Assembly: GCA_963920765.1 (NCBI GenBank)
Contig: OY987243.1
Location: 14,322,001-14,386,000, forward strand
Direction of reading: 5' to 3'
DNA: 64,000 bases
Source of the DNA: Ulota crispa
Lineage: Eukaryota; Streptophyta; Bryopsida; Orthotrichales; Orthotrichaceae
How positions within the stretch are numbered: the first letter of the stretch is position 1; the number at the start of each line of letters is the position of its first letter. Positions 2,833 to 63,914 of the stretch are shown one piece after another. Below the pieces are notes generated by a model. It saw only the letters and a list, made by a program, of their open reading frames with translations, made no database searches and had not been told where the DNA came from. The translations under genes and the position numbers were made by a program.

Positions 2833-3503
2833 TTAACCCCTAAAGGATCATGGCCTTTTTCTTATCAAAAGAAACTCAAAATTGTCACCTCTATGGCAAA
2901 GAGTAAAAAAGTTTGAAAATCAGGCGTTTTGCATATTTGATCGTAGGATCTTGTGCTAGACTACTATAAGAATGTGTCATACAAAACTCAAGAACTTTGA
3001 CCGCATAGATTGGAAGATATTTGCATTTAAAAAGTTAAAAACAACTTTTTTTGCACCTTGCTAGATTAGATTTTTTAACTTTGAACATTTTTGACTTAAA
3101 TATTTTGCACCACAAAGTTTGGAATTCTATTTTTCCATGGTGGGAAGTTAAGTTGGGAATCTTGGGAAAAATTTTAAAAAAGAATACTTAATTTTCATTC
3201 TTTAAAAAATATTAGGTAGAAGAAGGTATGAGATTGAACAAAAACTTAAATTGCTAATAACCCTGCAATATAATTGAAACGCAATAATCCCAATGGTGAG
3301 ATTGTTCTAGAAAGCAAACTTCACCCTCTCCAACAAATTTTTTTGAAAAAATGTTAAACTTGCATTCAAAAATGAAATTTATAAGTTATTTTTTCAAGAA
3401 GATGCTTGAGTTACCCGAAAACAAAATTGTCCATAATTTTCTCATAACTAGTCCAAATGGAATGATTCAAAGCTTCAAACGTACACAAAGATATAATCTA
3501 TAA

Positions 3504-3576
<73 letters not shown>

Positions 3577-3808
3577 CAAGTTTTTGTAAGAATTTTTTTT
3601 ATTGCCCCTAGTTCCCAAATTTGTGCTTATTTGGGCATAACTTTTGCTCCCTGGCATCAATTGGAATAAAAGTTAGATTCCCCAAAAGCTAATGTGTTTT
3701 TCTATCTTCATAAAAAGTTTCAAAAAATCCGGACAAAAATTGAGGCTTTAGGTACCTGCCTGAAATCCCATTTGTCCCCCGTAGGGACAATGGTCTTGTA
3801 GGGGTTAA
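2833..3808 (+). mobile_element. TTAA-flanked non-autonomous element, 0.95-kb family
   Basis: It starts TTAA-CCCCTAAAGGATCATGG and ends with a GGGACAATGG motif, then GGGG-TTAA at 3805-3808. The layout matches the other copies of about 940 bp, including the internal words GATCTTG and, near the right end, TTGTCCCC...GGGACAATGG. It is the most diverged copy and contains an expanded TA microsatellite at 3505-3573. No ORF with transposase character is present. Confidence 0.75.
3505..3573. repeat. (TA)n microsatellite
   Basis: A run of about 34 uninterrupted AT/TA dinucleotides lies inside the TTAA-flanked element. The reading frame it opens on the minus strand (alternating Y and I) is an artefact. 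Confidence 0.97.
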
Positions 3809-4400
3809 ACAAAAAACAAATGCTATGCTTGAGAAATGGATGGACTTTTAATTCCAATATTACCATTGTTCCCAAAAGGTACAAAGTGACATATTGGGCC
3901 AATTTTCTACAACTTGAATTTTCAATGAAACTTTTTTAGTATTTCTTGTATTCTAAGAATTTCTTGGAAGACAAGTTTTTTTTTTGAGTTTTTGGATTTT
4001 CTGTTTCAATTTGTGCTCAAGAGCAAAAGTTACACAACAACAACCTAATTAACAAACTAATCAAGAAACATAAAAATAAATAAGAATAGTGAAATAACAT
4101 TTGTAAAACTTGTGGTTACAAATACTACATTTGTTCTACATGCATAGTTTTTATTCATTCCATTTGAACTATTATACGTTACTAGCAGTTGAGGGACTCA
4201 ATAATTAATCAAAGTGCAAAATTAAGGTTAGGCACATGAAAAAATAACATGAAATTTTTATTTATTTAAAAAAAAATAGTATTAATGCACTCATCCAAGT
4301 CAATCACTAAAGTCATGGTATTTAGTTATATTATTTTGTTAGTATGATTAATAACTTGAGGTGACCTTCATTTTAGTATTCATTAATAAGATTGCATTCA
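3809..4400. other. AT-rich spacer between two TTAA elements
   Basis: This stretch between two elements of the same family has no gene-like sequence and no further terminal repeats that I can identify. Confidence 0.4.
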
Positions 4401-5349
4401 TTAACCTCTAAAAGTCCAAGTCCTTTTTTGTGTGAAAGTCACTAACAATTGCCACTTTTTGGGGAATGAGTAGAAAGGTAGAAAAAGTGTTTTTTTTTTA
4501 AAAATCCATCCTTTAGATCTTGCCCTAGACTATGCAAGGTACTTGAGAGAAAAAAATCAGCTTATTTTAAATGTAGAGGAGTGAGATATTAACAACTAAA
4601 AAGGTTTTTCTATGCAACCCAAATTTTTTATAAGCCTTTGACCGCTCCTGTATCAAAAAAATTGATCTACACAAATTTGAGGTTGATTTTTTTCATGTAG
4701 AAGACTAAGCTAGGTATGTGTGAGAGAATTGTCAAATGAAATGGAGGTGTGGATCATCCTTTGTAAAATCTTGCAATGTCGTCAAGCCATGAAGTTTGCA
4801 TATGCACTAGGCAAAATTGGAGGATTTATGTGAAATTTAGAAATCTAAATTACTTTGATCTAGATGGTGAACACCAAGGAAACCCATGAATCTTGGTCTA
4901 CAACAGCTTGGAAAAAAAGAAGTCAAAAAACAAATACATAAAGAGCTCAAAAAAGTAAAGCACCAACTTTTGCAAGGGGCAAAAGGAATGGAGGTTTGGG
5001 AGTCCCATACCTACTCACAAACTAAGACTTCTCACTTATTAATCAAAATTGAATGATTCAAAACTTCCCACATATACATAAATATAAAGAACTAATTTCA
5101 AATTTTTGTTTTAAATAATTACAATTATTTAAAAAAATTGGGCTACCCGCCTTCCCCCATATTTCATAAATTCATGCATAACTTCCTTAATAAATGTTGG
5201 AATGAAGAAAATATTGGATATCCACGTAGATCTTTGAATTCCCCATCTTCCATAAAAGTTTCAGAAAATCACACAAAGTAATTTAGAAATAAGTACATGC
5301 CCAAAATCTTGTTTGTCCCTCAAAGGGACAACAATCCTTTAGGGGTTAA
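4401..5349 (+). mobile_element. TTAA-flanked non-autonomous element, 949 bp
   Basis: The left end is TTAA-CCTCTAAAAGTCCAAG and the right end is ...CAATCCTTTAGGGG-TTAA. The GGGACAA motif near the right end and the internal GATCTTGCCCTAGACTA motif match the copies at 20391 and 59537. It is full length for the family and carries no ORF. Confidence 0.88.
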
Positions 5350-5990
5350 TTGAGCTTTGAAATAAAATCTAATAGTTCCCTTGACTTCTGCATCTGTGCC
5401 CATTGCAAATTAATTGAGCCTTCACGAAAATAAAATTTGAGGGATACCGCAACCTTTGTAGTATAAAATAGATGGAGTTATTCCTTTTGCTCAACCATAT
5501 GCCAACAATTAGGGGCAGCAGTCGGGAGGAGCAACCACAAGGGTGAATAACGTATAGGGCAATGCTCAAGGAGGGATTTGCGCAAATAAAGGGCCGACAA
5601 GGAGGGATTTGCGCAAACAAAGGGCCGACAAGGAGGGTGGAGCCCAATAAGGAGGCATTTCATTTGCGCAATCCTCTCTTTGAAGGGCATTGTCCAGCTT
5701 AAATCAATACAGGGAAGTTTGAATGAATATGTGAGTCTAGATGAAGAATTTGTAATCCCTGATGAAGAATCCATGTTCTTGAGTTACGCAAGTTTTCCCG
5801 CAAAATACAAGGCTGCAACATAGAACCCACCCCACACCTCGCACCCCGCACCCCATAAGTGAACTGCAAATATCCTTGCGGTGGTTTACAAAGGACAAGC
5901 AGTGAAAACGAGAAGGCTTGAGGTGAAAAACTCACACCAGAAGAATTCCCTACCCGATTCTCCACTCGCACAGAAGAAGACAAAATTTTC
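5350..5990. other. Intergenic, with a short 30-bp tandem repeat
   Basis: The motif AAGGAGGGATTTGCGCAAA occurs twice in tandem (about 5568-5627) with a partial third copy. Minus-strand reading frames of 92-130 codons cross the area but show no recognisable domain and no codon structure I trust. Confidence 0.5.
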
Positions 5991-5997
5991 TCCATCT

Positions 5998-6545
5998 TCA
6001 TAGAATGGAGCTCCCATCGACGGCAGATAGCCTGCCACACCCCATTCTCTAAAGATTGAGAATGGGGTGGGGTAGCTGTGACTACCCCCACGCCAAACCT
6101 ATCCCGGTGAATTTATTTACTCCATATTTCCTAGAATCATACAATCAATAGTCTAATTTCTCCAACTCGCCTAGATTTCTGTAACCAAAAACTACAACCT
6201 TTCCTAGATAATTTGTGATAGGCTTGGAAGATAATGATTCTCCTTGACCCTGTTGCTTGCAGGCGCAAGGTGAAGAAAAAAGCTTCTCAATCTTTAGAGA
6301 ATGGAGCTCCCATTGACGGCGGACGGCCTGCCACGTCCCATTCTCTAAAGATTGAGAATGGGGTGGAGTAGCTGTGACTACCCCATGTCAAACCTACCTC
6401 CGGTGAATTTATTTATTCCATATTTCCTAGAATCACATAATTGATAATCCAGAATCTTCAACTTGCCTAGATTTCAAAAACCAAAAACTACAACCTTTAC
6501 TAGATATTGTCTGATAGGCTTGGACAATAACGATTCTCCGTGACA
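5998..6545. repeat. Diverged tandem duplication, about 296-bp period
   Basis: The block starting GAATGGAGCTCCCAT at 6003 recurs at 6299 with roughly 85-90% identity by eye, running to GATAATGATTCTCC and ATAACGATTCTCC. Each copy contains a perfect hairpin, CCCATTCTC...GAGAATGGG. The phrase TGACCCTGTTGCT occurs between the copies (6246) and again near 6775, so the series continues towards the ITPK upstream region. Confidence 0.85.
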
Positions 6546-7753: not shown

Positions 7754-9392
7754 ATGGCGTCAGAGGGAGAGGTGTTTGCGGTAGGGTACGCATTGGCGGA
7801 GAAGAAGCAGAAGAGTTTTGTGCAACCCTCGTTAGTGGCACACGCGAAGAGCAAGGGCGTGAACCTGGTGCCGGTGAACATGAGCAAGCCTCTGGAGGAG
7901 CAGGGCCCGTTCGACGCCATCATCCACAAGCACGGGGGCGATCTCTGGAACCAGCAGCTGCTGGAGTACAAGGATCGTTACCCGCATGTCATCTTAGTAG
8001 ACCCCCCTGCCGCCATTGAGAAGCTGCAGAACCGCATTTCCATGCTGGAGGCTGTGGCTCATCTGCGCATCTCCGAAGGGCTCGGCACTTGCGGCATTCC
8101 CAAGCAGCTCATTGTTGATAACAAAGAGCTTTTCGACGACGACACCGCCATTTCTGAGCTGACGTTTCCTGTCATTGCCAAACCTATGGTCGCAGACGGC
8201 AGCGCCCTTTCCCATGCCATGTTCCTGCTGTTCAACACTCGCGGTCTGCATAAGCTGAACCCTCCTATGGTGCTCCAGGAGTTTGTCAACCATGGTGGAG
8301 TCATTTTCAAAGTGTATGTTGCTGGGAAGTATATTAAGTGCGTGAGACGGAAATCTCTTCCTGATGTTCACGAAGCCCAGGTGAACTAAATCATCCCTTA
8401 GAAAGCCAAACCTTTCATGGTTTTATCTAACCAACTCGATTAATTATAGGAAAAATTTGATGGATATCCATGAAGTTTGCAATATTTGTATAGATACCCC
8501 TGGTCTTTCAGAAAGTGCACATATACCCTTGGACCAAAAAAATTTGAGCGTTTGTTTTCTTTTGTTGTGCATGCCAATTTCCTTTTTTCTTTATGCGCAC
8601 GTTGCGGTTCTTTTTTGTTTCATTACATTCCCTTCTTCAACATTGGTCATGAAGGATGTAAGAGCACATAATGCCTGAAAATTTTGGTCCAAGGGTATTT
8701 GTGCAATTTCTGAAAAAGCAGGGGTATCTATGCAAATATCGCAAACTTCAGGGGTATCCATAAAGTTATCCCTTCGATGTTGTGAAATCTTTAATTCTGA
8801 CGAGGTCAAGTTTCATTACACCAGGATCCTGTGCATGTGTTTGATCAGTAAGTAAATGAAATCAGACAGTAGAATGTCTCATATAACCCACTGTGCTAAA
8901 ATTGTATGACGCTCAACACGGGGCCTCTTGGTCCCAGAATATTCTCTTGTATTTGGATGCTTTAGGATTCACTCTTGCTGAATACGGAATATTTGCTTGT
9001 GTTCGGTAACCTTGCAGGTGAGCAGCACTGAAGAGCCCCTGCCATTCTCCCAGATTTCCAACTTGATTTCAGGAGCCACCATGGACGAGAATGTTGCAAA
9101 GGCGGAGCTTCCACCGGAAGAGTTCATTGCTGATGTGGCGAATGGTTTGAGGGAGGGGCTTGGACTGCGGCTTTTCAACTTCGATGTGATCAAAGACTCC
9201 AAGGCTGGCAACCATTACCATGTGATTGACATCAACTACTTCCCCGGGTACGCTAAGATGCCTGCCTTTGAGAGTGTTCTTACAAATTTCCTGCTGGACC
9301 TTCGGCATGAGAAGGTCTCGGAGAGCGACTCCGAGACGCAGTCCTATGCCTCCATTGCCAGCAAGCTTGGTGTTCCTGTGAAAGAAGTGTAG
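7754..9392 (+). CDS. Inositol tris/tetrakisphosphate kinase (ITPK family)
   Basis: This gene encodes a cytosolic/nuclear ATP-grasp inositol phosphate kinase of the plant ITPK1-type family, which phosphorylates inositol tris- and tetrakisphosphates on the way to phytate. There are two coding exons, 7754-8380 and 9018-9392, with a phase-0 GT-AG intron, giving 333 aa (usual family length is about 310-350). The ATG at 7754 sits in a strong context (ACCATGG). Visible family motifs are an N-terminal GYAL..KK lysine-rich stretch, HKHGGDLW near residue 56, NRISMLEAV, then FPVIAKPMVADGS..SH near 145, LQEFVNHGGVIFKVYV near 180, CVRRKSLPDV, and in exon 2 LFNFDVI and DINYFPGY, which holds the Asp/Asn metal ligands. 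Nothing looks damaged. The exact ITPK subgroup and substrate preference cannot be told from sequence alone. The intron carries a 324-bp foldback element. Confidence 0.95.
8449..8772. mobile_element. Foldback MITE in the ITPK intron, 324 bp
   Basis: Arms of about 90 bp are inverted copies: the left has GAAGTTTGCAATATTTG and ATAGATACCCCTGGT, while the right, reverse complemented, has GAAGTTTGCGATATTTG and ATAGATACCCCTGC. Both continue through a near-identical CCCTTGGACCAAAA. The loop is about 140 bp. A related copy lies at 13939-14260. I see no clear target duplication. The element is within the spliced intron and does not touch the splice sites. Confidence 0.85.
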
Positions 9393-9916: not shown

Positions 9917-10010
9917 TTAACCCCCGAAGGGCGGCTTTGGAGCTACGGTACCAAATACGGTCGCAACCAATATTCAGAAGTTTGAATCAGCTGGAAATTA
10001 AGTGTTACAA

Positions 10011-10332
10011 CCATACATATAGAAGGGTTGAACCATACATATCGAAGGGTTGAACCATACATATCGAAGGGTTGAATCATACATATCGAAGGGTTGAACC
10101 ATACATATCGAAGGGTTGAACCATACATATCGAAGGGTTGAACCATACATATCGAAGGGTTGAACCATACATATCGAAGGGTTGAACCATACATATCGAA
10201 GGGTTGAACCATACATATCGAAGGGTTGAACCATACATATCGAAGGGTTGAACCATACATATCGAAGGGTTGAATCATACATATCGAAGGGTTGAACCAT
10301 ACATATCAAAGGGTTGAACCATACATATCGAA
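10011..10332. repeat. 22-bp minisatellite, array 1 (about 14 units)
   Basis: The unit is CCATACATATCGAAGGGTTG plus AA. Units are almost identical; GAATCAT variants occur at two places. Because 22 is not a multiple of three, the minus strand stays open in several frames across the array, which is a property of the unit and not evidence of coding. Confidence 0.97.
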
Positions 10333-10504
10333 AGCGTTGTTTTTTAACTGGAAGACCTAGAGCAAACTATCGTGATTTTGGTTTATCTAGACATGTATTA
10401 AGAGAAATGGCTCATGCATGCTTTTTACCTAGACTAACTAAATCTAGTTGGTAAAAATTTTGAAAAAAAAAATAAAAAAAAATTGTAATTAAAAAGCCCC
10501 CCTA

Positions 10505-10863
10505 AGGGTTGAACCATACATATCGAAGGGTTGAACCATACATATCGAAGGGTTGAACCATACATATCGAAGGGTTGAACCATACATATCGAAGGGTTGA
10601 ACCATACATATCGAAGGGTTGAACCATACATATCGAAGGGTTGAACCATACATATCGAAGGGTTGAACCATACATATCGAAGGGTTGAACCATACATATC
10701 GAAGGGTTGAACCATACATATCGAAGGGTTGAACCATATATATCGAAGGGTTGAACCATACATATTGAAGGGTTGAACCATACATATCGAAGGGTTGAAC
10801 CATATATATCGAAGGGTTGAACCATACATATTGAAGGGTTGAACCATACATATCGAAGGGTTG
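10505..10863. repeat. 22-bp minisatellite, array 2 (about 16 units)
   Basis: The unit is the same as in array 1. Towards the right edge a three-unit block containing CATATATATCG, CATACATATTG and CATACATATCG is itself repeated, giving a 66-bp higher-order period and indicating expansion by blocks. Confidence 0.97.
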
Positions 10864-11116
10864 TATGACAAGGGGTGCATAATTTTTTTTGGAAAGTCCT
10901 TAAAGTAGCTCAAATACGTCTGAACATAAGGCCATAGGGCGTTCGGGACATTCAGGGGTTAATTGGCACATTTTTTAATATTGTGTGCTAATTTAAGAGT
11001 TGCATTAGACTTTGAACGCTGAGCATGTAATTGTTATGTAAATTTATTAGAGGATGCTTTTGGGAACACGTAAATCAAGTAACCCTACTTCAATACTGCC
11101 TCCTCACTAAGTAGTA

Positions 11117-12342: not shown

Positions 12343-12383
12343 ATATTGCAGTAGGTGCTAAGGTTGGATGCAGTCCTTTTGGA

Positions 12384-12614
12384 TTAACCCTTGAAGGGCC
12401 ATTGTGCTTTGGAGCTACAGTACCAAATATGGTCGCCACCAATGTTCAAAACTTTGAATTAGGTGAAAATTAAGTGTTCCAACCATACATATTAAAGGGT
12501 TGTATGATGGGAGGTGCATAATTTTTTTGAAAAACCCTCAAAGTAGCTCAAATATGTCTGAACATACGGCCAAACATATGGCCACAAAGGGCATTCGGGA
12601 CGTTTAGGGGTTAA
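12384..12614 (+). mobile_element. TTAA-flanked MITE, 231 bp, single-unit form
   Basis: It runs from TTAA-CCCTTGAAGGGCC to ACGTTTAGGGG-TTAA. It is the compact relative of the minisatellite-bearing copy at 9917-10962 and holds one CCATACATATTAAAGGGTTG unit, in which CAACC and GGTTG can pair as a small stem. A third, incomplete, reverse-oriented relative ends at 40168. Confidence 0.9.
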
Positions 12615-15254: not shown

Positions 15255-15660
15255 TTAACCCCTAAAGAACCAAGCCCTTTTTTTGTGAAAATCATTGAAA
15301 ACTACCACTTCTAGGAGGTTTGGTAAAAAGAGCTTTTAGGTTTTGTTTTTAAGAAATCCAACCATAGGATCTTGCCCCAAACTAGAAGAAGTACTTGTGG
15401 GAAGAAAATCAGCATCATTCTAGGGGTGAAATGTTTACATTTAAAGTGAAAAAAAAGTTTTTTTCCATGCTACCCAAAAATTTCAGAAGCATTTTACCAC
15501 TATTATAATAAAAAAATTGCTCTACCCAAAGTTGCGCTTCATTTTTTCCATGTAGAAAATCAAGCTAGGTATGTATGGGAGAATTTTCATATCAATTGGA
15601 ATTATACAACACATGGGAAAAAATAGTAAGTAAAAATAAGTAGAGAATGAGTCAAATCAA
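15255..15660 (+). mobile_element. TTAA element, left part only (0.94-kb family)
   Basis: It starts TTAA-CCCCTAAAGAACCAAG and follows the copy at 20391 through GATCTTGCCC, AGAAGAGGTACTT, and the CACATGGG...GTAAGTAAAAA stretch. It stops matching after AGAGAATGAGTCAAA at about 15655. The right half is missing, apparently lost where the next repeat begins. Confidence 0.8.
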
Positions 15661-16289
15661 AACCAACTATTTTGGAGCCAAGGAATCCAATGGCATTGTT
15701 TGTTTGTTTGTTGTTTGGAGCTATGCTCCAAAAGTTATCAGTTTTTCATCAAGATTTCATCCATTTTGAGATTTTCTTAAATTTTAGGTAGATTTCAAGG
15801 AATCCAGGGATCTCCTAGATAAAGGGCCGAGAGGCCCTCCCAAAAATGTATAAAAGAGGCCCACCTCCTTGCAAAAGGGGGCTGGTCACCATCTCTTACA
15901 ATCATTTCCGTCACTTTCATTAGTAATCTCTAGCCTTTTTCCCACTTCTCTTGTCCTTGAGCTCTCTTGTGTCTCACCCTTAGTAGAGTTCTTCTCTTTG
16001 CAATTAGTTAGAGTCTTTGGGTTGGAGGTGTTGGTACTTCCAAACATTTAGGGGGAATTAGCATTGGTTATCATTTGGTCATACTAACCCCTAGGAAGTT
16101 GGATTATGACATGGCAATGCTGCTCTTCCATACTTCTTAGAAGTCCTAGTTAGTGTTGTGGTTGTTAAAGTGGTTATTAGAGTCCCATAGTTAGGATAGG
16201 TCCCTTGCCTTAAGCTTTCCATTTCCCACTTTCCACCGTTACCAAAAACCAAGCCTCACTTCACCACCGTATCAAATTTTGTAGCATTC

Positions 16290-19454: not shown

Positions 19455-20394
19455 TTAACCCCTAAAGGCCTAGCTGTCCCCCGGGGGACAAATGGATTTT
19501 GGGCATGTACCTATAGCTAATCTAGTTTTTGTGATTTTTTTAATCTTTTATTAAAGGTGGGGAATTCCAAGACCTATGAAGGAGTCTAATTTTTTTTTGT
19601 CATTCTAAAATTTGACAAAGAAGTTATGCAAGAATTTTTGTTGCCCAAGGGAAGGAAGACAATCCGAGCAGCCCAAAAACTTCTTAAAATTTTTATTTTC
19701 CTAAAATAGAAATCTGAAATTGGTTCTTTAGATTTTTTCATATTTGGGATGCTTTGAATCATTCAACTTCAAATCGATGAGATGAAAGTTATGACATGTT
19801 TTAGTTTGTGGGTAGTTATGGATTCTCTACTCTAAAATAAACTTTGAAGTCCTTTATTTTCCACAATTTCAATATTTTGGAAAAAAAATAAACCTAAGGA
19901 AGTAGATTTTTTTTTTACAACATTATAACCGTTTGGATTTGTATTTCTCATTTCAATAATTAAATTCTTAACAATTTAGTGATTTGACTCATTATCTACC
20001 TCTTTTTACTTACTATTTTTCTCCATGTGATGTGTATTTCTAATTGATTTGAAAATTCTCCCACATATACCTAACTTGGTCTTTTACATGGAAAAAATAA
20101 ACCTCAACTTTGTGTAGAGTAATTTTTTTCATGTAAGAAGGGTCAAAGGCTTTTGAAATTTACTAGCAACAAGGAAAAAAACCCTTTCTCTTCACCTCAG
20201 ATGTAAACATCTCCCTCCTCTCCGTCTAGAATGACCTGATTTTTTCCCACAAGTACCTCTTGTAGTCTAAGGCAAGATCCTACAGGTGGATTTGCAAAAC
20301 AAATTTTATTTCTTAATATTCTACTCAATCCCCCCAGAGTGGCAATTAATAGTGACTTTCACTAGAAGAAAGGGCTTGGGTCTTTAGGGATTAA
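19455..20394 (-). mobile_element. TTAA element, subfamily B, reverse orientation
   Basis: Read on the minus strand it starts TTAA-TCCCTAAAGACCCAAG and ends ...TAGGCCTTTAGGGG-TTAA. Internal words AGGTCATTCTAGA and TTCCTTGTTGCTAG agree with the copy at 60590-61531, which defines a subfamily distinct from the copy that abuts it. The terminal TTAA at 20391-20394 is shared with the next element. Confidence 0.9.
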
Positions 20395-21328
20395 CCCCTA
20401 AAGGACCAAGCTTTTTTTGGGTGAAAATCACTAAAAACTACCACTTTTAGGAGGTTTCGTAAAAAGGGATTTTATGTTTTGTTTTTGGGAACTCCAACCA
20501 TAGGATCTTGCCCTAGACTAGAAGAGGTACTTTTGGGGAAAAAATCAGCTCATTCCGGATAGAGAGAAGTGAGATGTTTACATCTAAAGTGGAAAAAAGG
20601 TTTTTTTCCATGCTCCCCAAAAATTTCAGAAACCTTTGACCACTCTTATAACAAAAAAATTGCTCTACCCAAAGTTGCGCTTTATTTATCCCATGTAGGA
20701 GATCAAGTTAGGTATGTGTAGGAGAATTTTCAAATCAATTGGAACTATACAACACATGGGACAAATCAATAAATAAAAAGAAGTAGAGAATGAGTCAAAA
20801 CACTAAATTATTTAGAATTTAATAATTTGAAATGAAAAATGCAAATCCCAAATGTTATCTTGTTGTGATAAAAAATCCACTTCCTTTGGTTTAGTTTTTT
20901 TTCCAAAATATTGAAAATTGAGTAAAATAATGGACTTCAAAGTTTATTTTAGAGTGGAGAATCCCTATTTGCCCGCAAACAAAAACTCCTCATAACTTTC
21001 ATGTCATTGATTGAAATTGAATGTTTCAAAGCTTCTCACCTATGAAAAAAATCTAAAGAACCAATTTCAAACTCTTATTTTTTAAAATATAATTTTTAAA
21101 GAAGTTTTTGGGCTGCTCGGACAGGCAATCCTCCCCAAATTTTCATAAATTCATGCATAACTTCTTCATCAAATGTTAGAATGAAGAAAAAATTTGATGC
21201 CCACATAGATCTTTGAATTCCCCACCTTCCGAAAAAGTTTCAAAAAATCATACTAAGTAGTTTAGCCATAGGTACATGCCCAAAGTCCAACCTGTCCCCC
21301 AAAGGGACAATGGTCCTTTAGGGGTTAA
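20391..21328 (+). mobile_element. TTAA element, subfamily A, 938 bp
   Basis: TTAA-CCCCTAAAGGACCAAG on the left and ...AATGGTCCTTTAGGGG-TTAA on the right give 14-bp perfect terminal repeats (CCCCTAAAGGACCA). It is closest to 59537-60469 and to the partial copy at 15255. It meets the reverse-oriented subfamily B copy head to head at one TTAA. It has no ORF. Confidence 0.93.
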
Positions 21329-26223: not shown

Positions 26224-26787
26224 ACAGCATATTTGTTAATTTGGGAAGAAACCTTGATTTTGGGGGTTTAACCCATAAAAGCCCACTTGTCCCTTTGGGG
26301 GACAAAATGGATTTTGGGCAACTCACTACAAGTGGACATTTCATCTTTTTTCTTTGAAAATTTCACACATGATGTATCCAAGGAGTAGCTTTAAGATCCA
26401 ACAGTTTTCATAACTTTTGACTACATGGTTCAAAAGTTATTGCATGAAATGTTGTTTTTTCTGAACTCTGGGCAGCCTGGGCAGCTCAAAAAACTTCTTT
26501 AAAAATTAAATTTTTTAAAACTACATTTCATGCAATAACTTTTGAACCATGTAGTTAAAAGTTATGAAAATTGTTGAACCTTAAAGCTACTCTTTGGATA
26601 CATCATGTGTGAAATTTTCAAAAAAAAAAGATGAAATGTCCACTTGTAGTGAGCTGCCCAATATCACTATTTTGCCAAAAAATAGTGCTTGGGCCTTTAG
26701 GGGTTAAGGTGACCACCTTAAACCGAGCTCTAGGTGTAAAGTGAGTATATTGGGAATTTGGTTTTTCCAATTTAATGAATATGGCGT
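26224..26787. mobile_element. ACACCATATT-family MITE split by a TTAA element
   Basis: The left part starts ACAGCATATTTGTTAATTTG and runs to 26267. The right part resumes at 26708 and ends TTTAATGAATATGGCGT. Removing the 440-bp TTAA element and one TTAA leaves about 124 bp of this family, so this is a shortened copy and a clear case of one element landing in another. Confidence 0.8.
26268..26707. mobile_element. Hairpin TTAA element, 440 bp, nested
   Basis: The outer ends are TTAA-CCCATAAAAGCCCACTTG and ...GCTTGGGCCTTTAGGGG-TTAA, typical of the TTAA group. The interior is almost one hairpin: CACTACAAGTGGACATTTC, CACACATGATGTATCC and AACTTTTGACTACATGG on the left recur as reverse complements on the right, with arms of about 170 bp around a loop of about 70 bp that contains GGGCAGCCTGGGCAGCTC. 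Confidence 0.92.
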
Positions 26788-29235: not shown

Positions 29236-29837
29236 TTAACCCTTAAATGTCAAGGTGGATGTTTTTCATCTGTTAGCTTAGAAAAACCCTCTGTAGCACA
29301 GAATGTAAGTCATTTACATCTAATTCATTTTCAAAAATGACTATAAACACATGGTCCATCATGGATAGTAAAAAACAACCTCACCAAATACACCCATATT
29401 TTAAGGTAACCAAAATTATGAGAAGATTCAGAGACATTGTGTTAGGTCCCATGGTGCCCTTCTTGCAATTTTCATGAAGGGGCCATGCACTGTTGACTTT
29501 TGCAAGTTTGAGGAGTAATCTTACGAGGCGGGTACCACGGCATTTTTTGAGGCTAGTGGTTTTTGCCAAATTCAAAATAGCCACAACTGAGTGGGTGATC
29601 AAAGGCAAGATGAGCCAACACTAGTTGATATTTATTTGATATGTCACCAATTGGTGATAGTTTGCTAGAAGAAGATGCTATAGCGGACATTGTCACGATA
29701 TTGTAGCATGGCTGGTCACGGTGACAAGCCTGGCGATTAACCCTTAAGCGCTGAGGGGTCATTGTAGATACACATCCGCTTATGTATGAGCACGGACGAT
29801 TTTTTGTCCCAATGGTGCTTTAGGGGTTAAGGGTTAA
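29236..29837. mobile_element. TTAA element hosting a smaller TTAA element
   Basis: The left end is TTAA-CCCTTAAATGTCAAGG. The right end, with the inner element and one TTAA removed, reads CCTTGACC-like ...AGCCTGGCGATTAAGGG-TTAA, whose reverse complement is TTAACCCTTAATCGCCAGGC. The shared TTAACCCTTAA terminus contains a second TTAA, and that internal TTAA is where the 94-bp element inserted. Confidence 0.7.
29737..29830. mobile_element. 94-bp TTAA micro-MITE
   Basis: TTAA-CCCTTAAGCGCTGAGGGG on the left and CAATGGTGCTTTAGGGG-TTAA on the right. It is the smallest member of the TTAA group here and is inserted into the terminal repeat of the element at 29236-29837. Confidence 0.8.
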
Positions 29838-33526: not shown

Positions 33527-35172
33527 CTAAAGTCATATCAAATAAATAGCATTAGAAGCATGGAAGAAAAAATTGTATTCTTCTAATCCCCTGGTACTTG
33601 AATAAATTCAAAAAGCCCGCCTTGGGAGCTCAGAGCCAATTTTATTGTAGATTCCAAATCATGATTTTATTGTTTAAAACAAAGAGAACAGCTTCTTCTT
33701 TCTATAAGTACATTTTGCTACATTATCTAAAGCCTCCTAGATGATCAATTTCAACTCCTAGATATGGAAGCTGCCACTTTTTAGTAACTTAGGCGACAAG
33801 GAACTAATTACAATCACTACTAATGCTAACAAAGTGATGTCAAGACCATGTAGAGGGAAAAGGGTGCCTAATTCACCTCAAGTTCTAATACTAGTGAAAA
33901 ATATAAGCACAATTATGCATTGATGTCGTACACAAAACTAAGAGCAAATACCTACTATGTAATTGAAAATGTAAAAATCACCAACCATACCTGTTCACAA
34001 ATCAAATTCAAATCCAAAAAGGTGGAATTTGATGAAGAGAAGCTGCAACTAAGTCATCCACAAACTGAAACATGAAAAAACCACATAACACACGTTAGGC
34101 AATGAACCTTGCATTCTTTTTAAAGTACCTTCTTTCTCACAATACCATGAAAAAAACAAAATCCTCATCAATCGTAAACAACAAGAGGATTACTTGCACA
34201 TGTGCAGGGCTACTTACCTTGGATCAAGGAAGAAAGACGGACAGGGTAGGAGCTCAACCCTGCCCCTCCCCCTTGAACCCTGCATCTTAAATAATCACAT
34301 AAAACATGAAACATCAGGTGCCAAATTCCAAATTTTGAAAACACACAAGTTCAAAACAAATGCAGAGTCTAGATTATGCCATACAAAGCTCATAAGAATA
34401 AGACAGACGAGTTCCACTACCTCCACGAAAGAAAAAGCCTCAATCCTCCACCATGAATGCAACTTGAAAGTAAGAAGGTGAACATCAAAGTACATTAACC
34501 CTTAAACGACCGAAAGGCCCTTTGCAACCAGTACAAATATGGAGTATTTGTCTTGTATTTGGAATGGATCCACACCTCTACTACATTTGAGACCAGCAAA
34601 GAAGTTGGAGAATAGATCAATGCGGTTCTAGTGAGCGACTTGAGATCCCAAATTAAAATTTCTTATTAATAACAAATGACAATTATACGTCAGCATATAT
34701 ACTATGCCCTATGGGCGTGTAAGGGTCAAGGGATGATTCTTATCACAACATCAAAAAACCTCAAATAATATGAAAAATCCCTCACATCTCGATACAACAA
34801 AAAACCCTACCTCATCGATAAATCTAAATCCGATTCGACCTAGAAATACTTCCAAATCAGTAAAGCTTCGCTTTCAGTCTTCTACTCACACAAGTACGTC
34901 ACCACAACAACAACAAAAAACAACCAAAAATCGAGGAAAAGGTGGAAAATTCCTAACCCTACACAGTCCAAAGTAACACCGTCCCTCACTAAACCCAAAA
35001 ACAGAAAACTCTCACAAAAAAGGGAACAGCTCAATCGAGAATCTCCTTAAACCTCCACAGCGACTAAATCTCATTTCACACATGTCAAATCCTTGGGCTC
35101 CAGAGAAAAAGAACAGATTCGCCCAAAACCTCAACTTTGGCCACCGACGGGAGAAATTCGAGAGAATGCTGA
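33527..35172 (-). other. Probable 5'-leader intron of the PPR-SMR gene
   Basis: On the minus strand TCACAG/GTCAGC near 35173 is a good donor, and GACTTTAG/CCAAATG directly before the start codon is a good acceptor. The enclosed 1.6 kb is AT-rich with no coding signal and contains a TTAA-flanked MITE at 34495-34729. Transcript evidence would be needed to prove splicing. Confidence 0.55.
34495..34729 (-). mobile_element. TTAA-group MITE in leader intron, 235 bp
   Basis: It runs from TTAA-CCCTTAAACGACCGAAAG to GCGTGTAAGGG-TCAA (the right target site has changed by one base). Its reverse complement matches 39708-39949 through CATTTGTTA, TTTTAATTTGGGATCT and GTGTGGATSCATTCCAAATA, so the two are copies in opposite orientation. 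Confidence 0.85.
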
Positions 35173-38030: not shown

Positions 38031-38039
38031 TTAGTGTTA

Positions 38040-38451
38040 GGGAATTGATATGTGTATCACACCCTTTGAACTACTGTATCACACCTTGGGGTAAATTTTA
38101 GATTTCTACCATCAAAAAGTTGAATTTGAGAATTTTGAATTCAGATATGGACTTAGAGACCATGATTTAGTCTAGAACTCAAATAATAGTGGCAATTCAA
38201 CAAGACCCAATGAAAAAGCTTATCTCTTTTTACAAACAAAAGGAAAAGTAACACTTTTCTCCTTAGCTAAACTTTTTCATTGGGTATTATTGGATTGCAA
38301 CTTTTTTTATGGTTCTAGACTAAATCATGATCTCTAAGTCCGAATCTAAATTCCAAATTCTCAAATTCAGCTTTTTGACAATAGAAATCTAAAATTTACC
38401 TCGGGGGTATGGTACAATAGTTCAAAGGGTGTGGTACACTTATCAATTCCC
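38040..38451. mobile_element. Long-arm foldback element, 412 bp, perfect 9-bp TSD
   Basis: Left GGGAATTGATATGTGTATC and right GTACACTTATCAATTCCC begin inverted arms that extend almost to the centre: CCAATGAAAAAGCTTAT faces a TTTTTCATTGGGTATTATTGG counterpart. The exact 9-bp repeat TTAGTGTTA flanks it (38031-38039 and 38452-38460), pointing to Mutator-type transposition. Three more copies and a relic are present in the window. Confidence 0.94.
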
Positions 38452-38809
38452 TTAGTGTTATTAGTGTTTATGTTTAAAAAAAAATTTGGAAGGATTAGTG
38501 TAGAAAGCTTCAAAGTTTATGTGCAATAAGAAAAATATATCGCTCTATTTTTTGTCAATGTCTTATTAGAGTGAAACTAGTGAACCCATGCACCCTTCGG
38601 GTCCTTTTCAAACACATAAGTTAAGGGTGAAGGCTTTAATCATGATTTGTTTGCTGTTTATTTTAATTGTTAATTCTTATCACGCTTATTGATTTGTTTA
38701 TTTTAATTGTTTCTTGCTTGCTTAATCACGTCATGTTGTTGCTTCTTTTAATCATTTTTTTGCTTATTTTAATGGTTTTTGTGACAAGTGAGGCTAATTG
38801 TTTCTTTAA

Positions 38810-39222
38810 GGGAATTGATATGTGCACACTAGGGGTTGATATTTGTACACCCCCTTGGGAGGTAAATTGTAGATTTCTACCATCAAAAAAGCTAAATTTG
38901 AGAATTTTGAATTCAAATTTGGAGTTAGAGACCATGGTTAATTCTAGAACCATTAAAAAAAGTTGCAATTAAACAACACTTAGTGAAAAAGCTTAGCTAG
39001 GGGAAAAAGTGTTACTTATACTTTTGTTTGTAAGAAAAGATAAGTTTTTTCATTGGGTGTTGTTCAATGGCAAAAAAATTTATGGTTCTAAAGTAAATCA
39101 TGGTCTCTAAGTCCAAATTTGAATTCAAAATTCTCAAATTCAGATTTTGATGATAGAAATCTACAATTTACCTCCCAAGCGGGTGTGCAAATATCAGCCC
39201 CTGGTGTGCACATATCAATTCC
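38810..39222. mobile_element. Long-arm foldback element, about 413 bp
   Basis: It is the same family as 38040, starting GGGAATTGATATGTGCACAC and ending GTGCACATATCAATTCC. The arms carry the shared words AGATTTCTACCATC, GAATTTTGAATTC and the central CATTGGGTGTTGTT. The target duplication is imperfect (TTTCTTTAA against ATTTTTTAA). Confidence 0.88.
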
Positions 39223-39707: not shown

Positions 39708-39949
39708 TTAACCCTTAAAGGATGAGCCTACTATAATACATAGCATGTACACTGTTATATAATTGGCATTTGTTACCAACAAAATGTTTTAATTTGGGAT
39801 CTTGACTACCTCATTAGAATATCATTGATTTATATTCTAATTTCTTAGTTGATCTCAAATATAATAAAGGTGTGGATGCATTCCAAATACAAGAAAAATA
39901 CACCATATTGTACTAGTCGCAAAGTGCTGCCTTGTTCTTTAGTGGTTAA
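39708..39949 (+). mobile_element. TTAA-group MITE, 242 bp
   Basis: TTAA-CCCTTAAAGGATGAGCC to TGTTCTTTAGTGG-TTAA. It is the counterpart, in opposite orientation, of the copy at 34495-34729 in the PPR leader intron. Confidence 0.85.
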
Positions 39950-39997
39950 ATAGTAGTACTTCTGAAGCATTACACATCTACATGTATATTTGCAGAG

Positions 39998-40168
39998 ATT
40001 TTGAGCTGCTCTCAGAGCTTTCCAATTTTTTTTTTGCACCCACCATCATACAACCCTTCAATATGTATGGTTGTAACACTTAATTTCCACTTGATTCAAA
40101 CTTTTGAATATTAATTGCAATTGTATTTGGTACCATATCTCTAGAGCCCAAGGGCCCTTGAGGGGTTA
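39998..40168 (-). mobile_element. Incomplete TTAA MITE of the 22-bp-unit family
   Basis: On the minus strand it begins TTAA-CCCCTCAAGGGCCC and matches 12384-12614 through GGTACCAAATAC, AAATTAAGTGTTACAACC, the single CCATACATATTGAAGGGTTG unit and ATGATGG. It fades near a TTGAGCTGCTC word at about 39998, so the distal end is missing or diverged. Confidence 0.8.
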
Positions 40169-40911
40169 AGTTGTTTTGTAGTAGCATCATAGTACTAAAT
40201 GGTAATTGAATGATATGTGTTCTTAAGGTTTATTTTGCAGCTGGACACTTCATTTTCTTTATAATAATGAAGGAACTGACAATATATATAAAAAGTCTTT
40301 ATTGCAATCAAAGACAAGGTCACCTTCTTAAATATTATCATTTGGTAGCCTTCCATCCTATGTATAGAATCCTACTTATAGTCATTTTGATCGTGAAGTA
40401 TAGTTTATGTGAAATTTCTAATACAAATATATTTTCAAGATATTTAGACACTGTGTTGATTCTTCGAACATACTCTAAACAAAATTCAAACATATAAACA
40501 CAAATGAATTCAATTGCTTACTAAAAAATCAATATTAATCACACAAGCGGCAACAATTTCCATGTTCACCTCTTATACATTTCATTTTTCTTTGTTTTTC
40601 ATCAACATTCAAAGGAAATAGAGTAATTTGGAGTTAGCTCAGCAGTTTATAACATAAACACAATACCATGCTTGAAAGGTACTCAAAATGAATTTTATGA
40701 AGTCATTGCCATTGAAACGCAAGTATTTATAAAGCTTCTAGGCATGAAAGCATATCTTTTTCCTTTACAATATCAAGGGTAGACCCCTACAATTATTTAA
40801 TTACTTTTTTATCAAAAACTGTAATCTTCACCTGTTAAACCTCCATCATGTTCTTACCATCTAATACAAATGCACACAAACCTCTCTCCCATTTATTATA
40901 TATGGCATTTC
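40169..40911 (-). other. 3' flank of the CBS-CBS-PB1 gene
   Basis: AT-rich DNA downstream of the minus-strand stop at 40912; it probably contains the 3' untranslated region. No other feature is recognised. Confidence 0.35.
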
Positions 40912-53790: not shown

Positions 53791-54723
53791 AAAATATTTA
53801 TAGAAATAGAATCTCTTATACTGAATTAGAGTCCTTTAGGAATCTTTTTGTAATTCATCAAAATACTTTAAAATAGTTTTAATAAAAAAACTATTACAAT
53901 AGTTTAGGTTTGTTTTTGAAATCTTTCTAGAATTTTTTTGGACTTCATTAAAATGTTTTGAAGTTTTAAAAAATAAAAGAAGTTTTCAAAAAACATAGAA
54001 TCTTTTAGAAGTTTGAGTGTACATTGATTGGTTTTATTTTCTTTACTCTTCACAATTTGGTTAGATTTAAAATTAGCAGCCTTTAAAGTCAAGTAAAAAC
54101 ATGACCATAATAACAAAAAAATCAATAGTTTTCTGTTGATTTGGACACTTTTGGACACAACTTCACTAATTCAACAAAATTTTATATAAAAAGTACAACA
54201 TTTTGTTGTTTTAAATACCAAAATTTCTTTACAAACAAATATAAGCGATGCTCCTCAATTCTTTGAAAAAATCATATATGTCCCTCAAAGATTAAAAGTA
54301 CCAAAAATATCTTTCCTTTTTGTATAAATATCAACAATGCTTCTAATATATTGGGAAAATATTAAAAATGCTCCTCAACTATTTTAAATTATTTACATCT
54401 TTGTGTTATATGATAACCAAGTGTATAGTTTAATGCAAATTCTTACAAGAAACCAAAGGTGATTTTTACATTTCAAATAACACAAGGATATATTTAACAT
54501 TTCAAAATAGAAGAGCTTTTTTATTACTTTTCCAAAATAATAGGAATATAATTGATACTCCTACAAAAAATAAGGAATATTTTTTATGTTTCACATATTT
54601 TTGGCGTAAACTTGATATTTTGAAAGACTTAAAGGGTATTTTTAGTGTTTTTCCTTCTATTACCAACCAAATGAATTAATAAAAAAACAATCTTATAAAA
54701 CATTTATATAAGCTTTAAAAGAT
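53791..54723. other. AT-rich intergenic DNA, nothing recognised
   Basis: Low complexity with no gene-like frame and no terminal repeats. Confidence 0.35.
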
Positions 54724-55136
54724 GGGAATTGATATGTGTACCACGCCCTTCCAATTACTATACCACACCACCGGATAAATTTTAGATTTCTACCACCAAA
54801 AAGCTGAATTTGAAAATTTTGAATTCAAATTTGGACTTAGAGACCATGGTATTGTCTAGAATCATAAAAAAAGTTGCAGTTCAACAACACCCAATGAAAA
54901 AGTTTAGTTAGGGAAAAAATTGTTAATTTTACTTTCATTTGTAAAAAAAGATAAGCTTTTTCATTGGGTGTTGTTAAATTGCAACTTGTTTTTATGGTCC
55001 TAGACAATATCATGGTCTCTAAGTCCAAATTTGAATTCAAAATTCTCAAACTCAAATTTTTGATGGTAGAAATCTAAAATTTACCTTGGAGGTGTGGTAC
55101 AGTAATTCAAAAGGTGTGGTTCACATATTAATGCCC
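54724..55136. mobile_element. Long-arm foldback element, 413 bp
   Basis: GGGAATTGATATGTGTACC to CACATATTAATGCCC, with arms as in the 38040 copy and a central TTTTTCATTGGGTGTTGTT. The flanks TTAAAAGAT and TTAAAAAAT are a 9-bp duplication with one difference, supporting the Mutator-type assignment. Confidence 0.92.
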
Positions 55137-55606: not shown

Positions 55607-55617
55607 AAAAATAGAAT

Positions 55618-55849: not shown

Positions 55850-56061
55850 AAAAATAGAATTGAAGAACATAAAATACGTGAAAATTAATAAAAAAATCAA
55901 TAGGAAACTAACAAAAAACAACAAACAATCAACAAAAAATTAACAAAAAAGTCAACATACTCTTGTTGAAAAGTACCCAAATCAACTTGACCAAATCCAC
56001 AAAAAAAATCAACAGTTTTGGTTGAAATTTTGTTGATTTTGTGCTAAGTTTTCTACTAGTG

Positions 56062-59536: not shown

Positions 59537-60469
59537 ATAACCTCTAAAGGACTAACCCCCTTTTTTTGTGAAAATCACTAAAAACTGCCACTTTTAGGAG
59601 ATTTAGTAAAAAGGGATTTTATGTTTTGTTTTTGGGAAATCCAGCCATAGGATCTTGCCCCAGACTAGAAGAGGTACTTGTGGGAAAAAAATTAGCTCAT
59701 TGCAAATGGAGAGGAGTGAGATATTTACGTCTAAAGTGAAGAAAAAAAAAGTTATTTTCCAAGCTGCCCAAAAAATTCAGAAACCTTTAACCACTCTTAT
59801 AACAAAAAAATTGCTTCCCAAAGTTGCACTTTATTTTTCCATGTAAGAGATCAAGTTAGGTATGTGGGAGAATTTTCAAATCAATTGGAACTATACCACA
59901 CATGGGAAAAAATAGTAAGTAAAACGAAGTAGAGAATGAGTCAAAACACAAAATTGTTAAGAAATTAATTATTGAAATGAAAAATGCAAATCCCAAAGGT
60001 TGTAATATAGTGGTAAATAATATACTTCTTTTGGTTTGATTCTTTTTGAAAACATTGAAAATTGAGTAAAATAAAGGACTTCAAAGTTTATTTTAGAGTA
60101 GAGAATCTATAGTTGGCCACAAACAAAAACTCCTCATAACTTTTATGCCATTGATTGAAATTGAATGATTCAAAGCTTCCCATGTATAAAAAAATCTAAA
60201 GACCTTATTCCAAACTTTATTTTTTTTAAATACAAATTTTAAGAAGTTTTTGGGCTGCCTAGATGGGCAATCCTCCCCAAATTTTCATAAATTCATGCAT
60301 AATTTCTTCATCAAATGTTGGAATGAAGAAAAAATTAGATGCTCACATAGATCTTTGAATTCCCCACCTTCCAAAAAAGTTTCAAAAAATCACACAAAGT
60401 CGTTTAGCCATAGGTACATGCCCAAAGTTCAACCTGTTCTTGAAAAGACAATGATCCTTTAGGGATTAA
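59537..60469 (+). mobile_element. TTAA element, subfamily A, about 933 bp
   Basis: The left end ATAA-CCTCTAAAGGACTAACC (target site changed by one base) and right end AATGATCCTTTAGGGA-TTAA. It follows the 20391 copy closely, including GATCTTGCCCCAGACTAGAAG and GGAATGAAGAAAAAATT. It has no ORF. Confidence 0.9.
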
Positions 60470-60589
60470 TTTAACAAAATGGATTTCAAAAAGATGCAGT
60501 TAAAAAAAATTATAACCCAAACAACAGCTTCAAATGTCTATTTTGAGCTTGAGCAAGTATGGGCCGCCATTAGTCTTGTATTTATCCTT

Positions 60590-61531
60590 TTAATTCCTAA
60601 AGGACCATTGCCACTTAGGGGGACAAATTGGTCTTTGGGCATGTATCTTTGGATAAGCTACTTTGGGTGATTTATTGAAACTTAATCAAGGTGGGAAATT
60701 CAAAGATCTATGTAGGCATCTAATTTTTTCTTCATTTTGACATTCAACAACAAAGTTATGCAAGAAATTACAAAACTAGGGAGGGAGGGGGAGTTTGGGC
60801 AACCCAAAAAGCTTCTTAAAATTTGTATTTAAAAAAAATAAAGTTTGGAATAAGGTCTTTAGATTTTTTTATACATGGGAAGCTTTGAATCATTCAATTT
60901 CAATCAATGGCATAAAAGTTATGAGGAGTTTTTGTTTGTGGCCAACTATAGATTCTCTACTCTAAAATAAACTTTGAAGTCCTTTATTTTACTCAATTTT
61001 CAATGTTTTCAAAAAGAATCAAACCAAAAGAAGTATATTATTTACCACTATATTACAACCTTTGGGATTTGCATTTTTCATTTCAATAATTAATTTCTTA
61101 ACAATTTTGTGTTTTGACTCATTCTCTACTTCGTTTTACTTACTATTTTTTCCCATGTGTGGTATAGTTCCAATTGATTTGAAAATTTTCCCACACGTAC
61201 CTAACATGTAACTAATCTCCTACACTCAAAAATAAAAGCACAAATTTTGGGTTGAGAATTTTTTTTCATATAAGAGTAATCATAAGTTTCTGAAATTTAC
61301 TGGCAGCAAGGAAAAAACATTTTTCCCTTCACTTCATATGTAAATATCTCCCTCCTCTCCATCTAGAATGACCTGATTTTCTTTTCCATAAGTACCTTCT
61401 CTAGTCTAAGGCAAGATCCAATGGTTGGATTTCTAAATTTTAAAAAAAAATCTACCTTCTTACTCATCCCCTAGAAGTGGCACTTTTCACTAATTTTGGC
61501 AGAAAAAAGGACTTGGTCCTTTAGGGGTTAA
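60590..61531 (-). mobile_element. TTAA element, subfamily B, 942 bp
   Basis: On the minus strand TTAA-CCCCTAAAGGACCAAG to CAATGGTCCTTTAGGAA-TTAA. Shared AGGTCATTCTAGATGGAG and TTCCTTGCTGCCAGTAAA place it with 19455-20394. It faces the subfamily A copy tail to tail across about 120 bp. Confidence 0.9.
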
Positions 61532-61830
61532 GGACCATGAGATTATATTTTGATTGCAGGGAGTGGATCCTAGCCTATAGATTGAAATCACTTAACAATT
61601 TAAAATTTGGTATTGGAGAACACATGTGATCACAAGAATTTTGCATCCGTCTAAAAATAACAACGGACTCAGGTATGTGAGTTGACAAATAATGATGTTT
61701 ATATATCATGGCTTCAAAATACGTATCCACTTTTTTGGTCAAACATGGATCAAAGCAACAACACAACACATCACATATCCAAGAAAAATATCAAATTTCA
61801 ATTGCACAATCCTAAAAGATCTCAAATTGC

Positions 61831-62604
61831 TTAACCCGTAAAAGACTAAAGAGCCCAATATGGCCAAACGGGGTCTTGGAGGTGTAAAAGTAGACAAAAA
61901 AGTCATTGCATGCTCAAGTTTTGGTTTGCCACTCAAGTCCAAATGGAGCTAAAAGTCCAACAAAACTTTTGGATCGGCTTGTTGTTCCTTGAAGCCTCTA
62001 GATTTTGCACCAAAACGTTTGAATTTACTATTTTTAATATTAAAAATATTAATGAGAGTGTATATAGGCATTGTACATTGCATTGTGGATGGAGGAATTT
62101 TGGATGGGACGGGTTGGAAGCCCACACTCCCACGTATAGGGGAGAAGGTTGGTGATGTGCCACTTTTTTTTCTCTCAATTGAGCAAGTTTTTGTAGCTCT
62201 AAAGTAGTGAGCCAACTAGATCCACTTACTTTGAATGACTATAAGTTTTGGATTTTTTTCCCATTTGAGGAGTTTTTTTCCATCAAGTATAGCTAAACAC
62301 AGTCTCATGGGATCAACCATTAGGTAATTGTTATTTTTAGGAAAAAATCACATCAAAGCCCAAAATCCTTATTGTGAACTACTACCCAAATTAATAAACA
62401 TGAGATTCCCAACGATGGGGATTTTGCATATTTAATTGGATTTGAAATCAAATTGGCTTAAAACTTTTGATTTATAGTTGGGTATAAAATGACTAGTTTG
62501 GATTGTGTGAATACTTATTCAACTTTCTAAAAAGTGAGGGAATGTGCTGAAGATTCCATATTGGAGGTATGCTAAATTTTCTTAGCAAGACGCTTAGGGG
62601 TTAA
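61831..62604. mobile_element. TTAA-flanked element, 774 bp
   Basis: TTAA-CCCGTAAAAGACTAAAG to GCAAGACGCTTAGGGG-TTAA. The interior differs from the 0.94-kb family, but the ends belong to the same group. No transposase-like ORF is present. Confidence 0.7.
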
Positions 62605-63195
62605 GAAATATGCATGTATTGTTTTCTTATACATTAGTAGTACAATGATGGTATTTGAAGATCTATTGAAATGTTGTTGTCATCTCACCTTTAAAATTTG
62701 TCATCCTACATGTAAGGCCAATTCTTGATTGTTTTCACCAATCAGATTTTTCATAACAATTATCAAATTTCTTGTAGTATCAATTTAGGGTAGCAAAGAA
62801 AGTGGGATTTTGACCATTTTGTCCACTTAACTACACTTTGTGATTGCTATTTTTAACTATTTTGTGTGAAACTAGTCTTATTGGAAAGGTAGGAGACCCT
62901 GCTTTTTAGAAATGTAAAGCTCTTCTCAATCAACGCTTGCATGAAGCGATAACATTTGAAACCGCACAAGCATGAAAAACTATAGATTTTCCACTTACCA
63001 CTCACTCAATTATTATACTATTTCACCTCCAATAGTAGATCTAGATGAAATTTTGTCACATCACAATGAACAAGATGTCCACATTTGTATGGTTAGATTA
63101 TTAAAATTGGATCCATAATTGATTCAACTTCACATCCAAATTTATTACCCGTGGTATTAGTGGATTTTGTGAAAATGTGTGCGGTCCTTAAAGGG
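62605..63195. other. Possible further TTAA element, left end not found
   Basis: The right margin reads GGTCCTTAAAGGG-TTAA at 63187-63199, a good right end for the TTAA group, sharing its TTAA with the next element. I cannot identify the matching left end, so this is recorded as a candidate only. No gene is visible. Confidence 0.4.
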
Positions 63196-63914
63196 TTAAC
63201 CCTTGAACGCCCTAGAGGACCAAAAGCGTCCTCGCATGATTTCAAAGCCTTGTTTGAGGCACTGGATCTCATTTTTTGGTCTTGCTATAAATTACAATTA
63301 TGAAGGCATTCAAGTTGACCATGTCAATGGAGTAATGGTAAGGAAAGCTAAATGTTGTACAAGTGCTGCAAAAGATTTCAGTGGATGATGCACCATACGA
63401 GGAGTGGTGGCAAGCAGTGTTTACAAGCTGCAATTGGGCAATATCCCTTGTTGGCAAGGGTTCAAGCATGTTCTAGATCTTTATTGTGGTAATCCTCAAT
63501 GACGGTGTTGGTCATTGTTTTTTGTGCAATAGTAACTTGAAACCCTAAACTTTACAGAAAAAGAAGCACAATCTTCAAAAAGTTGCAAGTGTGTGCATTC
63601 ACATCTAATCCTGCTACTCACAAAAATTGAGATGAATTAGGAGCTTATAGAATTTGTAAAAATCCTCAAATAGCAACTATCTACCAAAAAAAGAAATTCT
63701 GTCATCACGTGATATTTGATCAAATGTTATAATCTTCCATCTTCCATGGTTAGTTGTTCCCTAAATTTGCAAGTCGTTCTAAAAACAGGTGTTCCATTGT
63801 TTTCAATGGTCACTTTTTATGGATCATTAGATGGACTGAGATGCAATGCATCAAAGTTGTAGGTCTCCCAAAACCTTGATTTTGGTGAAAATGGCATGGG
63901 CGCTTAGGGGTTAA
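63196..63914. mobile_element. TTAA-flanked element, 719 bp
   Basis: TTAA-CCCTTGAACGCCCTAGAGG to GCATGGGCGCTTAGGGG-TTAA. Its right terminus (CCCCTAAGCG on the reverse strand) matches that of the 61831 element. No convincing ORF. Confidence 0.75.

Follow-up and report, generated by a model that had tools for sequence, protein, structure and literature searches.

TTAA-bounded elements in a moss genome and their probable kinship with piggyBac transposons

A 64-kb window of the moss Ulota crispa (G000:C2:14322001-14386000, the whole stretch of DNA that was analysed, within a genome of 274.8 Mb in 157 contigs) contains a set of short elements that begin with CCC, are bounded by TTAA and differ widely in their interiors. 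A moss host fits the LEAFY C-terminal family, which has matches at two adjacent places in the genome: a 103-residue stretch of one agrees at 101 positions with PDB 4bhk, a Physcomitrium patens structure, and less well with each of the other four LEAFY-type chains that were listed. The question raised by this locus is which kind of transposase moved them. We consider it very probable that they are non-autonomous piggyBac transposons, some resembling miniature inverted-repeat transposable elements (MITEs) and others being longer deletion derivatives, with transposase-bearing relatives of 5.0-5.7 kb in the same moss. The link is provided by one of the sequence groups, group A, both ends of which sit on a transposase-bearing locus, L050.

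Elements with common ends and their probable piggyBac relatives

Exact matches to TTAACCCYTAARNG number 14 in the 64 kb, versus a mean of 0.01 expected from 100 dinucleotide shuffles, none of which reached 14. With up to two mismatches allowed per end, 14 both-ended elements were resolved (94-1046 bp; summed length 9,459 bases, with one 4-bp overlap counted twice), along with three partial or interrupted copies: one with a left end only (15255-c.15662), one with a right end only (~39987-40169) and an interrupted group G element reaching up to 63199. Some ends could be paired differently (9917 with 10512 or 11167, and 39708 with 40169). These results bear out an earlier note on this DNA, made from its letters alone, which had described TTAA-bounded elements with common ends. 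The form that it gave for those ends, CCCYTAARNG next to TTAA, stands as a consensus rather than as a rule, since the motif is exact at both ends in only one of the 14 elements (20391-21328); TTAA is present at both flanks in 12 of them, the exceptions being TCAA at 34729 and ATAA at 59537.

BLASTN comparisons among the window elements gave about seven sequence groups, A to G, in line with the earlier count of at least seven interiors. Group A comprises the elements starting at 2833, 4401, 19455, 20391, 59537 and 60590, together with a truncated copy at 15255 and a palindromic one at 26268. Group B comprises those at 9917 and 12384 and a part at 39987-40169, and group C those at 34495 and 39708; groups D (61831), E (63196), F (29737) and G (up to 63199) have a single member each. 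The borders between groups are not sharp: 26268-26707 has group A ends, and some groups are connected by short weak BLASTN matches, one of which joins 61831-62604 to 2833-3808 over 34 bp at 85%.

The piggyBac transposase domain PF13843 (DDE_Tnp_1_7) has at least 120 matches in the genome (best E 1.3e-73), a lower bound, 116 of 528 first-look candidates having been scored, versus none in any of 14 control genomes. It was found in seven of eight frames scanned, the eighth (the second L031 frame, 430 aa) being without any family. The open frame of L033 matches piggyBat (9c0f, E 2.6e-24) and T. ni piggyBac (6x67, 7.6e-20), the sole two PDB sequences matched, and its aspartates align with both at VDE, TDNFF and GVDxxDQ. 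We take these aspartates to be the catalytic DDD residues. A cysteine/histidine cluster was seen by eye in the L030, L042 and L050 frames, with no Pfam domain match for the cluster.

Sixteen transposase loci were read at 6.4-9.0 kb for their ends. Both TTAA-CCC-type ends are present in five (L029, L031, L037, L038 and L050), which gives complete elements of 5.0-5.7 kb, and one plausible end is present in nine (L032, L034, L039, L040, L041, L042, L049, L051 and L052); L030 was ambiguous and L033 had none. L050 resembles group A on both sides: identity between its leftmost ~345 bp and the left part of the group is 72-74% (71% over 545 bp for the 4401 copy), and that between its last 149 bp and the right part of the group is 80-84% (87% over 111 bp for 59537 and 74% over 98 bp for 2833). 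The left end of L042, 613 bp long, lies ~1.0 kb from its transposase (1.6 kb counted from the terminus); it recurs at about equal transposase distance in L049, L050 and L051 (C8:11102709, C8:14220647 and C9:13220917), and L052 (C3:33346278) matches L042 over 6.2 kb at 91.5%, this end included. The window copies of group A match the first ~355 bp of the L042 end at 74-78% (4401 over 634 bp at 71%), and at 20 other genomic places the match to this end, at 89-92%, stops after the first 354-366 bp; the latter we take for MITEs.

Because L050 bears both of its ends, group A is best read as a set of deletion derivatives of the L050-type piggyBac lineage or a close relative. The view that the elements are non-autonomous holds, and the expectation of an autonomous-type relative is answered by L050, which comes from the same moss, shares these ends and carries a (broken) piggyBac transposase. 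A 637-652-bp miniature family from outside the window matches the ends of L031 over 21-49 bp. Group G was found elsewhere only as a 909-917-bp element (L034 and L032), and groups B-G are placed in piggyBac provisionally, by their ends and TTAA.

The 4-bp TTAA is duplicated on insertion, as judged from the paralogous empty site of the group D element (61831-62604) and from two weaker cases. The flanks of this element, joined at one TTAA, align unbroken to L034 at 84.8%, over the full 244 bases of the query, and also to L032 at 76%, over bases 4-244. L034 has CAAATTGC-TTAA-AAATTTGC at this site, and the window has CAAATTGC-TTAA-(group D)-TTAA-GAAATATGC. Weaker empty sites exist for two group A copies elsewhere: L036 has one TTAA in place of the first, and window 5976-6087 has one TCAA in place of the second. 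The empty-site match of a third is on the right side only. TTAA was present at both flanks in 20 of 20 junction pairs, selected from rows that extend to the two termini of a query, its TTAA included. The single TTAA that had been anticipated for empty sites is thus seen at L034 and L036.

By the known piggyBac mechanism, a transposase with the DDD core would bind the CCC-starting ends, excise the element and join it into TTAA, which would thereby be duplicated; the chemistry is presumed to be the same here. Internal deletion would then yield copies that keep the ends and could move in trans. A transposase of this kind may also have been responsible for groups B-G.

Two loci deserve mention in their own right. 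The L033 transposase (C2:34591000-34600000) is stop-free over most of the domain, and L097:391-3638 (C1:1178700-1184400, the C1:1180709 region) contains piggyBac-like coding in three open blocks in which DDD motifs can be made out by eye. Downstream of the latter, at ~1.7 kb, is one right-type CCC end, for which no left counterpart was seen in the 5.7 kb read; a domesticated gene with introns is possible. Copies with the same score also lie at near places (C9:9402903, 9413556 and 9443859; C2:36765124 and 36779670; C7:18203169 and 18223004), which suggests segmental duplications.

Weighing the assignment

Several observations weigh against the piggyBac assignment or narrow it. A clean TTAA is found only in the L034 and L036 empty sites, L032 having TAAA at the group D site, and all of the empty sites are paralogous, not allelic. 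Other ends (CCCCTCATCG, CCCCTTGAGG and CCCCTCAACA) are present in three of the five complete elements, so CCCYTAARNG represents one subset of ends. No CCCYTAARNG end (<=1 mismatch) was found in the first 20 transposase loci (L009-L028, 1.5-kb flanks), which we put down to the short flanks; pairing of TTAA sites by inverted match in these short loci gave noise only. Similarly, no TTAA-CCC end (<=1 mismatch) was found in the 9 kb of L033, where one candidate with two mismatches lies at 7763. Only 10 of the 120 transposase rows are stop-free, and the L050 transposase is broken and split over frames. Within the 938-bp group A copy, a central stretch of ~430 bp has no counterpart in the transposase-bearing elements examined, nested copies aside. 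For groups B-F (one to four members compared), BLASTN against a small set of loci gave no transposase-bearing element with their ends, and genome searches with group E and C members listed dispersed copies with no transposase-bearing link.

The earlier note had proposed that a single transposase mobilised all of the cargo, and the likeness of the ends across groups at CCCYTAARNG speaks for a single piggyBac enzyme behind all seven interiors. However, the transposases associated with CCCYT-type ends form at least four lineages of ~28-48% mutual identity. By tblastn, L031 is 39-43% identical to L042, L049, L050, L051 and L052 (43% to L050), L030 is 52-56% identical to the same five, L032 shares 64% with L034, 63% with L041 and 31-38% with the others, and L029 is 41-48% identical to L038, L039 and L040. 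Group A belongs with the lineage of L050, and the 637-652-bp family with that of L031; the ends resemble one another without being identical. Such divergence among lineages with these ends argues against one transposase for all cargo, a proposal that we now regard as unlikely; cross-mobilisation between lineages may occur.

A superfamily other than piggyBac is less probable still. Kolobok, which the earlier note had offered beside piggyBac, also targets TTAA, and the Kolobok/T2-MITE elements of Xenopus share the TTAA duplication, but excerpts of the source (PMC6004289) give AG-starting ends (printed as AGGRR/RR and AG), versus CCC here, and a THAP/H2CH transposase. THAP (PF05485) gave no matches in the moss genome and none in the control genomes either, so that its absence is not shown by this search. 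Given the printed ends, and with both group A ends sitting on a piggyBac element, we think it very unlikely that these are Kolobok MITEs, and it is the piggyBac half of the earlier proposal that holds. Tc1/mariner-like elements, which duplicate TA, could mimic the pattern through a preference for T-TA-A, since an empty TTAA alone cannot separate the two duplications if the neighbouring T and A are fixed. Elements with the same ends carry PF13843 transposases, however (no search aimed at mariner transposases was made), and a mariner origin is similarly improbable. CCCTAAA resembles the plant telomere unit, which could point to telomere-like repeats or chance TTAACCC motifs, but an origin of this kind is refuted by the enrichment of the motif, both in the window (14 versus 0.01) and genome-wide (4,911 for a 21-base form of the end versus 0 for its control), and by dispersed copies that end at the same bases; its probability is negligible.

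Abundance and comparison with described systems

The 12-mer TTAACCCYTAAR occurs 43,736 times genome-wide, versus 1,097 for the reversed control, and 16 such 12-mers lie in the window, versus 10.2 per 64 kb on average across the genome. Among the genome matches listed, the 2833-3808 element has 34 other long copies at 85-89%, and the 20391-21328 element has 39 other rows at 85-91%, besides itself, its neighbour at 79% and one 65-bp fragment. For the 34495-34729 element, most of the 41 rows listed span both query ends at 90-93%.

A border TTAA is common to two group A copies at 20391-20394 and to the G and E elements at 63196-63199. The group A copy at 60590-61531 either adjoins the left end of G or lies inside it, at a place where the relatives of group G are without a clean TTAA. 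In a 20-copy sample, another CCC end abuts 7 of 40 sides, as judged by eye. Intact back-to-back junctions number 705 genome-wide, versus 0 in the control and ~259 under random choice of TTAA, the latter being a rough estimate (N = 43,736/2, with N squared divided by the genomic number of TTAA sites as extrapolated from the window's 430). This 2.7-fold excess could equally stem from clustering of transposable elements in gene-poor DNA and we do not claim targeting. As a tentative possibility, which we would not favour at present, this moss (or moss lineage) might host a large piggyBac radiation in which several lineages keep a near-common code, CCCYTnArnG, their enzymes perhaps cross-mobilising families, with >20,000 elements that tend to re-use border TTAAs.

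Comparison with T. ni piggyBac (6x67) and piggyBat (9c0f) places the moss elements within a known superfamily: the DDE_Tnp_1_7 transposase, the aligned aspartates, the TTAA target and the CCC ends are alike, and piggyBac ends normally begin with CCC, CCCTT being commonest, according to an excerpt of PMC10813416. The moss differs in the host itself, in the 5.0-5.7-kb size of its complete elements and in the degree to which ends of the non-autonomous type outnumber transposase matches (the latter a lower bound). Coral elements (CMITEs and AmiPB1-6; PMC2872659, as excerpted) also have TTAA, tandem arrays and ends of 13-14 bp, CCCTTTAAGCCCTA and CCCTTAGAGACCTA among them, and one family is seemingly piggyBac-derived. 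The coral CMITEs are ~100 bp with a conserved interior and varied ends, whereas in the moss the ends are alike and the interiors vary (94-1046 bp). With coral piggyBac and MITE ends of this form and TTAA already in print, the suggestion that the window holds an undescribed system is not sustained.

Nor is piggyBac in land plants new as such, because a fern genome table lists 1,230 PiggyBac copies (PMC6890710, in part); its occurrence in plants is also stated in passing in portions of two papers on animal piggyBac (PMC10813416, PMC10140906). Among the titles listed from the open-licence literature, none concerned native piggyBac elements in moss. In the portions available, PMC10619864 and PMC12531127 use the word as 'piggybacking', and PMC5505980 treats animal piggyBac as a tool that has been applied in rice and had yet to be tested in Physcomitrella. 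The superfamily is thus known, and the points of interest are its abundance in a land plant and the common terminal code over diverged transposases. piggyBac has been studied mostly in animals, and ~43,700 TTAACCCYTAAR ends with at least 120 transposase matches suggest that in a land plant, too, it can generate MITEs on a major scale. This would add a superfamily to plant transposable element annotation and make end-sharing by diverged transposases testable.

Positions and minor observations

Table 1. Elements of the window and complete transposase-bearing elements elsewhere in the genome (locus and positions within it).
Position	Strand	Feature	Evidence or remark
2833-3808	+	Group A, 976 bp, left interior diverged	TTAA at both flanks; right ~105 bp 77% to 20391 copy
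4401-5349	+	Group A, 949 bp	First ~545 bp 71%, last 149 bp 79.9% to ends of L050
9917-10962	+	Group B, 1046 bp, inner 22-bp tandem array	Outer parts 77-83% to 12384-12614; TRF period 22
12384-12614	+	Group B, 231 bp	Ends, BLASTN
15255-15662	+	Group A, left part, ~408 bp	83.6-86% to left parts of 59537 and 20391 copies; right end not found
19455-20394	-	Group A, 940 bp, border TTAA common with next copy	Ends, BLASTN
20391-21328	+	Group A, 938 bp, motif exact at both ends	Ends, BLASTN
26268-26707	+	Palindromic 440-bp element, group A ends	Inverted repeat inside, 81.8% over 374 bp; 81-85% to group A in first 53 bp
29737-29830	+	Group F, 94 bp, single long hairpin	Fold -32.9 kcal/mol
34495-34729	+	Group C, 235 bp, right target copy TCAA	Ends
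39708-39949	-	Group C, 242 bp	78% to 34495 copy over 190 bp
39987-40169	-	Group B, partial, adjoining group C copy	77% to 12384-12614 over 184 bp
59537-60469	+	Group A, 933 bp, left target copy ATAA	Ends, BLASTN
60590-61531	-	Group A, 942 bp, at or in left end of group G element	BLASTN
61532-63199	.	Group G, ~0.9 kb minus inserts, split at 61831-62604	L034:8062-8978 and L032:229-1137 match both sides of insert
61831-62604	+	Group D, 774 bp, within group G	Paralogous empty site
63196-63914	+	Group E, 719 bp, at right border TTAA of group G	Many of 43 genome rows listed end at same bases
L031:1467-7212		Complete piggyBac	CCCCTAAATGCCTAA at both ends
L029:1463-6489		Complete piggyBac	Ends CCCCTCATCGCC / CCCTTCATTGCC
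L037:1995-7224		Complete piggyBac	CCCCTTGAGG at both ends
L038:920-6573		Complete piggyBac	Ends CCCCTCAAC / TCCCTCAAC
L050:232-5386		Complete piggyBac, 5,155 bp, TTAA-flanked	Begins and ends like group A

The middle of the 9917-10962 element has ~39 units of 22 bp by TRF, in a stretch that includes one non-repeated gap, as though a satellite were arising from a MITE. An orphan end, TTAACCCTTAAATG, lies at 29236 with no clear partner, and perhaps belongs to an element that the 94-bp group F copy has split. In addition, a near-palindromic repeat of ~415 bp, starting from around GGGAATTGATATGTG, is present at 38037-38452, 38809-39222 and 54723-55096 of the window and, nested in the L031 piggyBac, at L031:2479-2888; no TTAA ends were seen on it, and it probably belongs to another transposable element family.

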